DNA of 58,223 nucleotides from a virus: positions 1-58,223 of the IMG/VR virus record IMGVR_UViG_3300033179_000003; one strand, 5' to 3'. The translations under genes were made by a program, and so were the position numbers. Positions 6,086-47,978 of the stretch are shown piece after piece. Numbering within the stretch: position 1 is the stretch's first letter; each line of letters begins with the position of its first letter. Below the pieces are notes generated by a model. The model was not told where the DNA came from. It saw only the letters and a program-made list of their open reading frames with translations, and did no database searches.

Positions 6086-6296
6086 CAGATTTCTCATGAG
6101 TATATTTTCCTTTGATGTGCGCGTGATAGTGTTTACCCACACTTTCACTATTTAACATTGCGTCAAATTGATGCTTTGGAACATCGTTATGATGGTAAGT
6201 GCCACCTTTAGCGAATGTTAAACTAAGGCGCTTAGCATCTTCGTCATAAGCGATATGGGTAATCATTTCTGAGCGAGTGATTTCGACTTTGGTCAT
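6078..6296 (-). CDS. KTSC-domain protein
   Basis: This encodes 72 residues that match the KTSC pattern: ITHIAYDEDAKRLSLTF, then GGTYHHNDVP, then SVGKHYHAHIKGKY. KTSC domains are small beta folds common in phages; some are fused to lysyl-tRNA synthetases, but their molecular role is not settled. It overlaps the upstream endonuclease gene by four bases, so both belong to the leftward operon. Confidence 0.75.
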   Translation of the reverse strand: MTKVEITRSEMITHIAYDEDAKRLSLTFAKGGTYHHNDVPKHQFDAMLNSESVGKHYHAHIKGKYTHEKSDD

Positions 6297-6949
6297 TTGG
6301 TGTCCTTTATAAGTTTGACTTCATTACCACTATTTATAATTAGTATATTTTTGTTTTTCAAAGTTTCGGCAATTTTATTTCTTTGTTCTTGTGGAATTGT
6401 TTTTCCTATATTACCTAATCTAATTTTTTCCATCCACTCTGGAGATTTAATTATTCCTTTGCGGGATGCTGACATTTTATCTCTTGTTTCTTTTGACGCC
6501 AACTTTCCTTTATTAGCTTGGCTTATGCTCAATCTATGCTCACTACTGATAATTTGATTTCTTGCTCTATCTTTTTGTTCTTCGGAAATAACTTTTCCTT
6601 TATTCCCTAATCCTATTTTTCTTTTATGTTCTTCTGTAAAAACCATACCTTGATTATTTTCAGCTTTGGGTCTTAAATTATAGCCTAATTCTGGATCATA
6701 GCTTTTAAAATAATCCATCCAATATTGTTCGCGTTCTACAATATTAATTTTTTCAGCTAATACTTCTAAAATTATAAATTCAAAACTATGCCATCCATTT
6801 TTATCCCAAGCTGATTGTAAATATCTATTTGCATGAATATTTTTAGTTAATTCATGTATGTGTTTTTTCTTTCTTTTATCATAATTTACAGAACTTCCGA
6901 CATATCTTTTATTTGTTATTTTGTTTAAGATTAAATATATCGCTATCAT
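6293..6949 (-). CDS. GIY-YIG homing endonuclease with NUMOD3 repeats
   Basis: This encodes 218 residues. The N-terminus has the GIY-YIG signature in the form IYLI...KRYVGSS, then a catalytic-type ERE near residue 72 (VEREQYW). Residues about 100-205 hold repeated NUMOD3-like DNA-binding motifs (HKRKIGLGNKG, IRLGNIGK). It sits just after the DNA polymerase gene, a common home for free-standing mobile endonucleases. The 3' end overlaps the KTSC gene. No intron is seen in the polymerase. Confidence 0.85.
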   Translation of the reverse strand: MIAIYLILNKITNKRYVGSSVNYDKRKKKHIHELTKNIHANRYLQSAWDKNGWHSFEFIILEVLAEKINIVEREQYWMDYFKSYDPELGYNLRPKAENNQGMVFTEEHKRKIGLGNKGKVISEEQKDRARNQIISSEHRLSISQANKGKLASKETRDKMSASRKGIIKSPEWMEKIRLGNIGKTIPQEQRNKIAETLKNKNILIINSGNEVKLIKDTK

Positions 6950-19073: not shown

Positions 19074-19102
19074 TTGCCAAAAATAATTTTGGCGGATATC
19101 AT
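19074..19102 (+). promoter_or_regulatory. PR, rightward early promoter with operator
   Basis: TTGCCA (19074-19079) and TATCAT (19097-19102) are 17 bases apart. The spacer holds a palindrome: GCCAAAA (19076-19082) and TTTTGGC (19087-19093). That layout suits repression of PR by the small HTH protein encoded just downstream. It is inferred from sequence only. Confidence 0.5.
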
Positions 19103-19147
19103 GCAACGCACTATTTTACCCAAATCAGAAATAAAGCATTGAAAACA

Positions 19148-19363
19148 ATGAAGAAATCAAGGTTTCCCTCTAAACTTCATGAAGCTACCTTTCAGCTTTT
19201 CCTAAAGGCACCTCGCAATCTTACAAATAAGAAGATAGCAGAAGATACAGGTTTAAGCCAAGCTTGGTTAACCGACTTCAGTAAAAATAGAATAGATCAA
19301 ATACCGGCTGGCAAGCTGGAAGCTCTCTATAACTATCTGTCATCAACGCCATTTGAAATTTAA
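19148..19363 (+). CDS. Small HTH regulator (Cro/CI-like)
   Basis: This encodes 71 residues from ATG; a TTG at 19139 in the same frame is possible. The helix-turn-helix fits NLTNKKIAEDTGLSQAWLTDFSKN, near residues 24-47. It is the first gene behind PR and sits beside a palindromic operator, so it probably represses the divergent promoters. No integrase is present, so it may time early expression rather than maintain lysogeny. Confidence 0.7.
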   Translation: MKKSRFPSKLHEATFQLFLKAPRNLTNKKIAEDTGLSQAWLTDFSKNRIDQIPAGKLEALYNYLSSTPFEI

Positions 19364-19369
19364 AATCGA

Positions 19370-21763
19370 ATGAACAAATTCGAAAACATTCCCTTAGAGA
19401 TGAGGGAACATAAAGCTTGGGTACTGTGGAAGTATGTTGATAAAGGAAAACCAAAGCTAGATAAAATTCCTTACTCGGTAAGTAATTATCAAGCAAGTCC
19501 TACTAATCCTAATGATTGGTCTGACTTTGATAACGTCATACGTTGCTATAATGTTGGTGGCTATGATGGCATTGGGTTTGTATTTAGTAAGAACGATCCT
19601 TATGCGTTTATAGATTTAGATGTAAAAGCTGGCGAGCAACCTTCGGATATTCAACAAAAGATTTTAAATGAATTTGATACTTATTCGGAGCTTAGCCCAT
19701 CTGGCAGAGGTTTGCATCTTATTGTTAAAGGTTCTGTTTCGCGTGATCGTAATTTCGGTGGAGTAGAGCTTTATTCAAATACTCATTATGCAACAATGAC
19801 TGGAAATGTATTTGCTAATAAACCTATTGCCGAGCGAAACGATTTGCTTAATCAACTTTATAAGCAAATGGATGAAAAGCTAAATTGTAATGCCAATTTA
19901 AATGTTCCTGATGTTGTTGAAACTCAATCTGATGAAAGCATTCTAGAATTAGCTCATAAGCATAATTCAGAAAAGTTCTATCCCTTATCATTAGCTCAAT
20001 GGCAGGGAAAATATGTTTCTCAGTCTGAAGCTGATCAAGCATATATGAATATTATTAGTTACTATACAGATAATCGAGAGCAAGTTAAACGTATTTATTG
20101 TCAATCTGAATTAGCTAAAACAGACGCAAAGCGAAAAACACAAGCTTATCTAAATCGTACAGTGAATACAGCCTTTGATCAAAAATTACCCACAATAAAC
20201 ATAGATGGATTTAAAAATGCATTGGAGGAAAAACTTGAACAACAGAGAGCAGAGCAGCAATCAAAAATTGATGGCAATATATCTTACCTTAATGGCCATT
20301 CCACTATTGATACTAATCTTGATTTAACAACTAAGGACGTGTCGCCAAGTGGTTTAAGGCCGGCTGCTCATAACAGCCTTATCGCAGGTTCAATCCCTGC
20401 CACGTCCACCATTCAACCTCCTTTTGGTCTCATGGGAGATATTGCACGTTTTATTTATGATGCCGCTCCACGTCCTGTTCCAGAAGTGGCAATAGCCGCT
20501 GCAATAGGTTTTATGGCTGGTATATGTGGTAGAGCTTATAATTTTAATGATACTGGTCTTAATCTATACATTATGTGTTTAGCTAAAACAGGACGCGGAA
20601 AAGAAGCGGCGGCATCAGGTATTGATAAAATTATTAATGAAGTTCAAAAGCAAGTTCCTGTTGCTTCTGAATTTATTGGTCCTAGCGAAATTGCTTCAGG
20701 GCAAGCATTAGTTAAATATATCGCTAATAAGTCTCCATGCTTTGTTTCTATTCTTGGAGAATTTGGAATTAGACTACAAATTATGTCAGACAATCGTTCT
20801 AATAGTGCTGAAAAAACATTACAAAAAACACTATTAGAATTATATCAAAAATCTGGGCATGGTCAGATTATGCGTTCTTCTATATATGCTGATAAAGATA
20901 AAAATACAAATGATACTTTTTCGCCAGCATTTTCTATTCTTGCTGAAGGTACCCCAGAAACAGTTTATGAGGCTGCTGATGAAAATATGATTTTAAGTGG
21001 TCTTTTGCCTAGGTTTATAATTTTAGATTATCAAGGAGATAGGCAACTTTTAAATGAGAATAGAAATGTTATCCCTGATGGAAACTTAATTAGAGATATC
21101 GCTCATTTAATGTCAAATGCTAAAACCTTGATGGCCAATAGGACTGTAAAGTATGTATCTTTAAATTCTAAAGCAAAAGCATTATTAAAAGAGTATGATG
21201 AATTTACAACTAGTAAAATTAATTCAAAGGAGGAGCATAAAGCAATTATTGAATTATGGAACCGTGCTCACATTAAATGTATTAAACTTGCTTCTTTAGT
21301 TGCTATTGGTATTAACATAAATGATCCTATCGTAACTGAGAATGAATTTATATGGGCTAAGAATATTGTGGAAAGCGGCATAAATATATTATCAAAAAAG
21401 TTTTCTTCTGGACAAGTGGGCAAATCATCAAATGAGCTTAGACAGATTAATGAAGTAAAAAGAATATTTGTAGAATTTGTTAAAATGAAACCCGAAAAGC
21501 TTAAGAGTTACCAAATATCAGAGCAATTATATAATGCTAAGACAATACCATTAGCATTTATATCGCGCAGATTATCTAATAATATTGCTTTTAAAAATGA
21601 TCCTATCCCGAGTGCCTCTATCCATAGAGCTATTAAAAATTTACTTGATACTGATTTTATTGAAGAGGTTCCAAAAGATAAAGCTAGAGAATTAGGAGTT
21701 AAAAGGCAGAGTTTATATATGATATCAAACATGTCAATACTAGACGAAATGTTAGATGAGTAG
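19370..21763 (+). CDS. Primase-helicase with AEP and DUF3987-type domains
   Basis: This encodes 797 residues. The N-terminal 170 residues look like an archaeo-eukaryotic-type primase: IDLDVK with D82 and D84, SGRGLHL with H116, and GGVELYS with E133. Residues about 355-700 resemble DUF3987 primase-helicases, with a P-loop-like KTGRGKEAA. A helical C-terminus ends in SILDEMLDE. It should lay primers and unwind DNA for the family B polymerase. Remarkably, residues 322-348, in the linker between the domains, are translated from a complete tRNA sequence (20335-20411). Confidence 0.83.
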   Translation: MNKFENIPLEMREHKAWVLWKYVDKGKPKLDKIPYSVSNYQASPTNPNDWSDFDNVIRCYNVGGYDGIGFVFSKNDPYAFIDLDVKAGEQPSDIQQKILNEFDTYSELSPSGRGLHLIVKGSVSRDRNFGGVELYSNTHYATMTGNVFANKPIAERNDLLNQLYKQMDEKLNCNANLNVPDVVETQSDESILELAHKHNSEKFYPLSLAQWQGKYVSQSEADQAYMNIISYYTDNREQVKRIYCQSELAKTDAKRKTQAYLNRTVNTAFDQKLPTINIDGFKNALEEKLEQQRAEQQSKIDGNISYLNGHSTIDTNLDLTTKDVSPSGLRPAAHNSLIAGSIPATSTIQPPFGLMGDIARFIYDAAPRPVPEVAIAAAIGFMAGICGRAYNFNDTGLNLYIMCLAKTGRGKEAAASGIDKIINEVQKQVPVASEFIGPSEIASGQALVKYIANKSPCFVSILGEFGIRLQIMSDNRSNSAEKTLQKTLLELYQKSGHGQIMRSSIYADKDKNTNDTFSPAFSILAEGTPETVYEAADENMILSGLLPRFIILDYQGDRQLLNENRNVIPDGNLIRDIAHLMSNAKTLMANRTVKYVSLNSKAKALLKEYDEFTTSKINSKEEHKAIIELWNRAHIKCIKLASLVAIGININDPIVTENEFIWAKNIVESGINILSKKFSSGQVGKSSNELRQINEVKRIFVEFVKMKPEKLKSYQISEQLYNAKTIPLAFISRRLSNNIAFKNDPIPSASIHRAIKNLLDTDFIEEVPKDKARELGVKRQSLYMISNMSILDEMLDE
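20335..20411 (+). tRNA. tRNA with CAT anticodon, inside the primase gene
   Basis: All four arms are present. The acceptor stem GGACGTG/CACGTCC, anticodon stem GGCTG/CAGCC and T stem GCAGG/CCTGC are perfect. The D stem is GCC/GGC, the T loop is TTCAATC, the anticodon CAT is at 20369-20371, the variable loop has five bases, and ACCA follows the acceptor. The first pair is G-C and the anticodon stem lacks the GGG/CCC of initiators, so it is either elongator Met or an Ile2 type that reads ATA after lysidine modification. The tRNA stands wholly within an open reading frame on the same strand and is GC-richer than that gene. Confidence 0.9.
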
Positions 21764-35744: not shown

Positions 35745-35821
35745 GTCCGTTTACCCCAATTGGCAGAGGGATGGCACTTAAAATGCTTTCAGTGTCAGTT
35801 CAAATCTGACAACGGACACCA
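35745..35821 (+). tRNA. tRNA-Leu (TAA anticodon), short variable loop
   Basis: The acceptor stem GTCCGTT/AACGGAC and T stem GTCAG/CTGAC are perfect. The T loop is TTCAAAT, the D loop has GG, and CCA is encoded. The anticodon TAA is at 35779-35781. The anticodon stem TGGCA/TGCTT has a T-T clash at its base and one G-T pair. The variable loop is five bases, unlike normal leucine tRNAs, which have a long arm. TTA codons are very common in this genome, so it fits translation support, but the identity by anticodon alone is not certain. Confidence 0.85.
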
Positions 35822-47336: not shown

Positions 47337-47978
47337 TTGATTTGTATTTACGCAATTATTAATATTATTGACGATAAACAATATGTTGGTCAAGCTAAAG
47401 ATAGAGATTATAGGTGGAAAGAACATCGTAAGCAGTTAAGAGGATATTATCATCATAATTTATATTTACAACGTGCTTGGTGTAAATATGGTGAAAGTAA
47501 TTTTGTTTTTGTTGTTCTTGAAGTATTGGACGACGCAAGTAAGTTAAACGAACGTGAAACTTATTGGGCAAATCTTCTTAAAGCCGAATACAATATTGCT
47601 CCTGCTGGCGGAAGTATGAGAGGATATAAGCATACTGATGAAGCTAGAGCTAATATGAGTAAGGCCAATAAAACTAAGCATTCCAAAGAACATAAACAAA
47701 AAATGTCAGAGCGCATGAAAGGCAATCAATTTAATACTGGTAGGAAACAATCACTAGAACATATTGAAAAAAGAGCTATTGTTCATAGAGGAAAAATAAC
47801 ATCAGAAGAAACAAAAGCTAAAATATCTGCTTCTAATATAGGGCAAAAGCGATCCGAAGAAGCTAGGAAAAATATGTCTACGTCTGCTAAAAATAAACCT
47901 CCTGTTTCAGAAGAGACACGTAAAAAACTTTCGGAAGCAGCTAAAAAGCAGTGGCAACACTACTTGACAGAAATTTAA
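47337..47978 (+). CDS. GIY-YIG homing endonuclease with NUMOD3 repeats
   Basis: This encodes 213 residues from a TTG. IYAIINIIDDKQYVGQAKD is the GIY-YIG motif; ERETYW near residue 73 holds the catalytic Glu; NUMOD3-like repeats follow (DEARANMSKANK, EARKNMSTSAK). It sits as a free-standing mobile gene between scaffold and coat genes, where phage endonucleases often insert. Confidence 0.85.
   Translation: MICIYAIINIIDDKQYVGQAKDRDYRWKEHRKQLRGYYHHNLYLQRAWCKYGESNFVFVVLEVLDDASKLNERETYWANLLKAEYNIAPAGGSMRGYKHTDEARANMSKANKTKHSKEHKQKMSERMKGNQFNTGRKQSLEHIEKRAIVHRGKITSEETKAKISASNIGQKRSEEARKNMSTSAKNKPPVSEETRKKLSEAAKKQWQHYLTEI

Follow-up and report, generated by a model that had tools for sequence, protein, structure and literature searches.

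The presence of a tRNA gene inside a protein reading frame is unexpected, because release of the tRNA cuts the message. A tRNA predicted within the primase-helicase gene of a viral contig thus raises the question of whether the RNA, the protein frame that runs through it, or both are genuine, and of how the two products could be drawn from one transcript. The locus lies in the 58,223-nucleotide stretch of DNA analysed here, hereafter the window (positions 1 to 58,223 of the IMG/VR record IMGVR_UViG_3300033179_000003), and its features are collected in Table 1.

Table 1. Coordinates of the primase-helicase locus in the window.
Feature	Position	Strand	Basis
Small ORF directly 5' of the primase	19139..19363	+	KL1 counterpart is a transcriptional regulator/HTH
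PrimPol-helicase (DNA primase) ORF of 797 aa, uninterrupted across the tRNA	19370..21763	+	phrog_3022; relatives of the solved PrimPols NrS-1 and 7ola
N-terminal part, residues 1-321: primase/polymerase, HBD and 5' linker	19370..20334	+	PF22763 at 218-271; PDB profile match, residues 8-259
tRNA gene, CAU anticodon (candidate elongator Met or Ile2), encoded CCA	20335..20411	+	ARAGORN, Rfam RF00005, fold
C-terminal DUF3987/helicase part, starting about 8 bases past the tRNA CCA (PPFGLMG...)	20412..21763	+	PF13148 at 513-668; alignments

An earlier note on this DNA had claimed a real tRNA with a CAT anticodon and an encoded CCA, and this was borne out by ARAGORN, which called a CAT-anticodon tRNA with boundaries exactly at 20335-20411 on the + strand, and by Rfam RF00005, which scored it at 55.3 bits (cut-off 29). 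Minimum free energy folding gives the cloverleaf (z = -3.2 relative to shuffled sequences), and the molecule combines a cloverleaf above the curated RF00005 score with a 7-bp acceptor, a TTC T-loop and a CCA end. Its description as fully paired was slightly generous: the stems, of 7+3+5+5 bp, are there, but at one place only, the fourth position of the D-stem (A13-A22), no pair forms. When run with default settings over the whole window, Rfam overlooked the 55-bit tRNA (20335-20408), which was detected when a short stretch was scanned, apparently a filter effect. Codons 322-348 of the primase ORF coincide with the tRNA and give the in-frame peptide KDVSPSGLRPAAHNSLIAGSIPATSTI (PAAHNSLIAGSIPATSTIQPPFG is an example of a peptide stretch spanning the tRNA-encoded linker). 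Of the three frames across the tRNA only that of the primase is open, and the same-strand, in-frame nesting at residues 322-348 reported before holds, the 797-aa ORF running uninterrupted through it. The higher GC content that had been noticed was also recovered, with 57% in the tRNA vs 34% in the primase ORF.

The frame that hosts the tRNA matches phrog_3022 (phage DNA primase) with an E value of 6e-196, collinearly over residues 2-779. Residues 8-259 have 7ola, 6k9a and 6a9w as PDB relatives by profile match, residues 218-271 correspond to an NrS-1-type HBD (PF22763) and residues 513-668 to DUF3987 (PF13148), and this succession of Prim/Pol, HBD and DUF3987 with a full-length phrog_3022 match places the protein among the NrS-1-type PrimPol-helicases. 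The HBD and DUF3987 flank the tRNA, in agreement with the proposed location in a linker between primase-like and DUF3987-like domains. The AlphaFold model of the primase is weak (pTM 0.44) and renders the linker as a low-confidence coil (pLDDT 23-48 over residues 295-345), consistent with an inter-domain linker that is probably disordered. In cultured-phage homologs, which share about 41% identity with the window protein, the linker is about 25 residues shorter, and no nested tRNA was found in the primase of any of the cultured phages examined. A probe made of the tRNA linker plus the helicase matched 226 cultured-phage records, 0 of them covering 80% of it, and 30/30 among the matches listed aligned on the helicase side only. 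Where the window has the ORF 19139..19363, a small gene for a regulator/HTH protein is present in cultured relatives. A promoter-like site is present upstream of this small ORF (19074-19102, + strand), which is probably co-transcribed with the primase. Elsewhere in the window, two ORFs at 6293-6949 (-) and 47337-47978 (+) were judged by eye to resemble GIY-YIG homing endonucleases (MIAIYLILNKITNKRYVGS... and MICIYAIINIIDDKQYVGQ...).

The main point beyond the observation in a single window is that the nesting recurs across the phage clade, where the tRNAs are of two identities and a gene can hold as many as two of them. Relatives were gathered by a family-alignment search of viral contigs (IMG/VR), completed by further searches and a survey, and their tRNAs were called by ARAGORN; no cultured phage belonging to the clade was found. 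Nested tRNAs were found in the primase linker of 18 distinct lineages including the window (19 contigs, 29 distinct tRNAs); 17 have a CAU anticodon and 12 are tRNA-Gln(UUG), and 29/29 lie on the sense strand in the same linker with an encoded CCA. They are arranged as CAU alone in 6 lineages, Gln alone in 1, Gln-CAU in 4 and CAU-Gln in 7. A tree built from the primase without its linker unites all tRNA-bearing primases, together with eight tRNA-less members, in a single group with full support (26 rows). It requires 8 changes for nested vs none and 12 when all five states are distinguished, which points to repeated gain, loss or swap of tRNAs at one site. The suggestion that the tRNA is an insertion is in line with this result, since it behaves as an inserted module that is absent from the cultured-phage homologs and from the eight tRNA-less clade members. 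These eight also have neither a Gln nor a CAU tRNA elsewhere in their available sequence, suggesting that nested tRNAs are dispensable.

The closest relative of the window (L192; 67% identity in the best segment and 73% across the columns shared) bears a nested CAU tRNA whose body differs from that of the window copy. The window tRNA thus looks as if it had been replaced or independently acquired with retention of the anticodon, divergence in place being a further possible origin of the difference. A search with the body of the window tRNA returned two contigs only, both of a single unrelated phage type in which the tRNA stands alone near a tmRNA. A reading of the locus as two split genes was discarded, as none of the 18 lineages has a break in the frame, and one search match (L200) was rejected as a clade member as it is not a primase. 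One relative has a primase split by a single in-frame stop (L106:7321-7323), either a natural split or a sequencing error. Another, tRNA-less, carries an in-frame, intein-like insert in the P-loop region of its primase (L075:5099-6067; CHTRGTKILMYDG...VHHNT). A more distant relative (L148:12490-13128) has a 213-codon open frame with a same-strand tRNA-Gln(UUG) in its upstream part; this frame may in fact start only past the tRNA.

As tRNA genes are common att sites and the contig is metagenomic, one could think of an attP carrying a copy of a host tRNA, or of an assembly artefact. No integrase was seen among the larger ORFs of the window. Two tRNAs can stand in tandem, their acceptor stems diverge, and the frame is intact in 19 contigs drawn from many assemblies; together these observations leave this explanation hardly any credibility.

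We then considered whether the RNA fold itself is under selection. With the cloverleaf imposed on the 16 aligned CAU tRNAs, 99.1% of the cells are standard pairs, double changes occur at 18/21 pairs, and the covariation is 0.632 vs 0.201 in shuffled alignments and at most 0.137 when the structure is slid. The 12 Gln tRNAs behave alike, with 98.4% of paired cells, double changes at 18/21 pairs and a covariation of 0.859 vs 0.226 shuffled, none of the shuffles reaching this value (0/500, a count that treats related sequences as independent and is not a probability). Positions involved in tertiary contacts and those of the T-loop are invariant in the nested tRNAs. The comparison demonstrates that selection has kept the nested tRNA fold across the clade, a conclusion made firm by the control with the slid structure and by how many types of pair occur. 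A chance origin of the window tRNA is likewise excluded, given that the nesting recurs in 17 other lineages and that the paired positions covary. Both outcomes that the earlier note had named as arguing against a functional tRNA, a negative tRNA score or the same linker without pairing, were checked, and the opposite was found in each case. The insert-like GC content could also be that of tRNA genes recently inserted and now serving as protein linker only. Such a fossil is ruled out for the clade by covariation at 18/21 pairs in both sets, and no decayed tRNA copies were seen in the tRNA-less linkers, where only chance matches of 9-14 nt occur; we regard it as very improbable for the window as well.

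The protein frame through the tRNA is evidently maintained too, to judge from the comparison of nested and stand-alone tRNAs. It is open in 29/29 nested tRNAs and is the sole open frame for 17/17 of the CAU tRNAs, and the product of the open-frame fractions is 1.9e-12, a naive chance value that takes the sequences as independent. For the stand-alone tRNAs of these phages, 10/30 lack any open frame. As a further control, a DNA pattern for this type of CAU tRNA was run on viral contigs, a tRNA being counted as nested when inside a stop-free stretch of at least 100 codons. The pattern was found in 35 viral contigs and was nested in 10/10 clade members vs 0/25 others (Fisher 5e-9, kinship ignored), suggesting that it is an ordinary phage tRNA, unusually placed in this clade.

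Outside the tRNA, primase linkers that bear one count 11-44 aa (median 18-19) vs 27-55 aa (median about 40) in tRNA-less clade members, a difference with p = 0.001 when kinship is ignored; the window primase retains a long remaining linker of 44 aa despite its tRNA. Because tRNA-bearing linkers hold less other sequence, the tRNA-encoded peptide seems to stand in for ordinary linker, beyond a mere addition, and a tRNA sequence may thus be domesticated as a protein linker.

In a strong alternative, the tRNA is functional and nothing regulatory attaches to its nesting: the tolerant linker would be a landing site, within an expressed gene, for a tRNA that happens to have an open frame, and the loss of mRNA would be negligible. 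It shares with the reading that we prefer, set out below, the core of a dual-coding gene and differs in the switch only. It accords with a linker that is unconserved and modelled with low confidence, with the repeated gain, loss and order changes described above and with the existence of tRNA-less relatives. However, parking alone predicts no specificity, and only Gln and CAU tRNAs occupy the site. The other tRNAs of the clade (Leu-UAA, Thr-UGU, Pro-UGG, Arg-UCU) all lie outside the primase in whole contigs, and no Gln or CAU tRNA was found outside the primase in the clade contigs, tRNA-less members included, several of these contigs being fragments. The L192 contig has, in addition, one odd tRNA with no clear anticodon. 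On balance, we give the landing-site explanation a serious chance, somewhat short of even. At 35745-35821 (+), the window encodes a tRNA with a UAA (Leu) anticodon and a short type I variable region, which sets it apart from the usual bacterial tRNA-Leu. Comparable UAA tRNAs, also of type I, occur in L204, L209, L213, L218 and L219, and normal type II Leu tRNAs in other relatives.

As to what the nested tRNAs would decode, the Gln-UUG of the relatives fits the codon bias of the window, where CAA accounts for 67% of Gln codons, and AUA makes up 24% of Ile codons. Wherever the anticodon is clear, the other tRNAs of the clade decode codons that end in A. It is plausible that the CAU tRNA is an Ile2 carrying lysidine and reading AUA, and it could also be an elongator Met. 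The anticodon loop CTCATAA, invariant in the 16 aligned CAU tRNAs, is common to both. The acceptor pairs of the E. coli TilS type are C4-G69 and C5-G68; C-G is found in 6/16 of the aligned CAU tRNAs at the fourth acceptor pair and in 6/16 at the fifth, and is not conserved. In some unrelated phages, this type of CAU tRNA is accompanied by a tRNA-Ile(UAU), and there the CAU tRNA would be an elongator Met. Initiator tRNA-fMet is marked by C1 and A72 left unpaired and by an anticodon stem with three G-C pairs; this identity was rejected, as the first acceptor pair is G-C, G-U or A-U in 16/16 and the anticodon stem differs.

The structure could instead be a tRNA mimic, that is, a regulatory element of the mRNA that binds a synthetase, RNase P or a modification enzyme and has no decoding role. 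Its position within the coding region of an mRNA would suit such a function, and tRNA-like mRNA operators have bacterial precedents. Yet the nested molecules are complete canonical tRNAs, with CCA encoded in 29/29, two identities and tandems in either order, and phages have close tRNAs of this type that stand alone. We thus consider a mimic improbable.

Taken together, our results make it likely that this is a dual-coding gene, in which a functional tRNA doubles as in-frame linker and its release from the primase mRNA competes with translation. The 200 nt 5' of the nested tRNAs hold no excess of promoter-like sites (6 observed vs 7.4 expected), none was found on the + strand between 19367 and 20335 of the window, and downstream of the nested tRNAs no Shine-Dalgarno sequence with a start codon is conserved. 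With no promoter excess upstream and no conserved restart downstream, the tRNA is probably cut from the primase mRNA. It would have no promoter of its own and be transcribed as part of this mRNA, from which host RNase P, at the 5' end, and 3' nucleases would free it. Ribosomes crossing the linker would hold the tRNA unfolded and yield the full-length primase; otherwise the tRNA would be excised and the message destroyed, so that one mRNA molecule could give primase or tRNA, not both. The supply of decoders for Gln-CAA and AUG/AUA would in this way be coupled to transcription of a replication gene, and the output of primase limited. When two tRNAs are nested in tandem they may even share a base: at L099:6948-7096 the CCA of the Gln tRNA ends on the very A with which the CAU tRNA begins, and both could not be released fully intact from one transcript.

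The earlier idea that processing might split the primase into two products would survive in part. A separately translated helicase was rejected, as there is no conserved Shine-Dalgarno start after the tRNA, and the helicase half would come only from ribosomes that read through. The cut, stopless 5' fragment may, for its part, yield extra N-terminal PrimPol (Prim/Pol-HBD), the part described as catalytic in the NrS-1 polymerase (PMC7102993). We propose, tentatively and as somewhat less likely than not, a switch in which primase translation and tRNA excision exclude each other on each mRNA, host RNase P and ribosome traffic setting the ratio and an active N-terminal PrimPol possibly being released. 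If this is true, the gene would be of a new kind, at once dual-coding and limiting its own output. A clade in which nesting recurs and both fold and frame are selected offers a natural test of the competition between ribosome and RNase P for one RNA, and annotation pipelines that forbid overlap of tRNA and CDS may lose one of the two genes.

No published precedent for a tRNA nested in frame in such a gene was found in the open-licence literature, and the locus is best compared with systems that share some of its features. The nested tRNAs resemble stand-alone or clustered phage tRNA genes in being canonical and CCA-encoding, and the same CAU type stands alone in 25 other viral contigs, but here they lie wholly inside, and in frame with, a long replication gene on the same strand. 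The host protein shares with NrS-1-type PrimPol-helicases (phrog_3022; 6a9w, 6k9a, 7ola) the N-terminal Prim/Pol and HBD and the C-terminal helicase-like part, and differs from them in its tRNA, which the cultured phages examined lack. HDV-like theta ribozymes, described as linked to phage tRNAs (PMC10879173), are likewise RNA processing elements associated with such tRNAs; no ribozyme family was found in the window, however, and the tRNA is here within coding sequence. Inteins and introns of phage replication genes are also modular inserts that preserve the frame of the host ORF, as does the intein-like insert of L075 in the same primase, whereas the nested tRNA would be translated, not spliced, and its release as RNA would be destructive instead of restoring the message. 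Finally, in bacterial mixed tRNA-mRNA transcripts such as that of the tufB operon, the tRNA lies between genes and its release by RNase P leaves the coding sequence whole. The primase transcript would be similar in having its tRNA released by RNase P from a protein-coding RNA, with the difference that cutting here would destroy the coding sequence.
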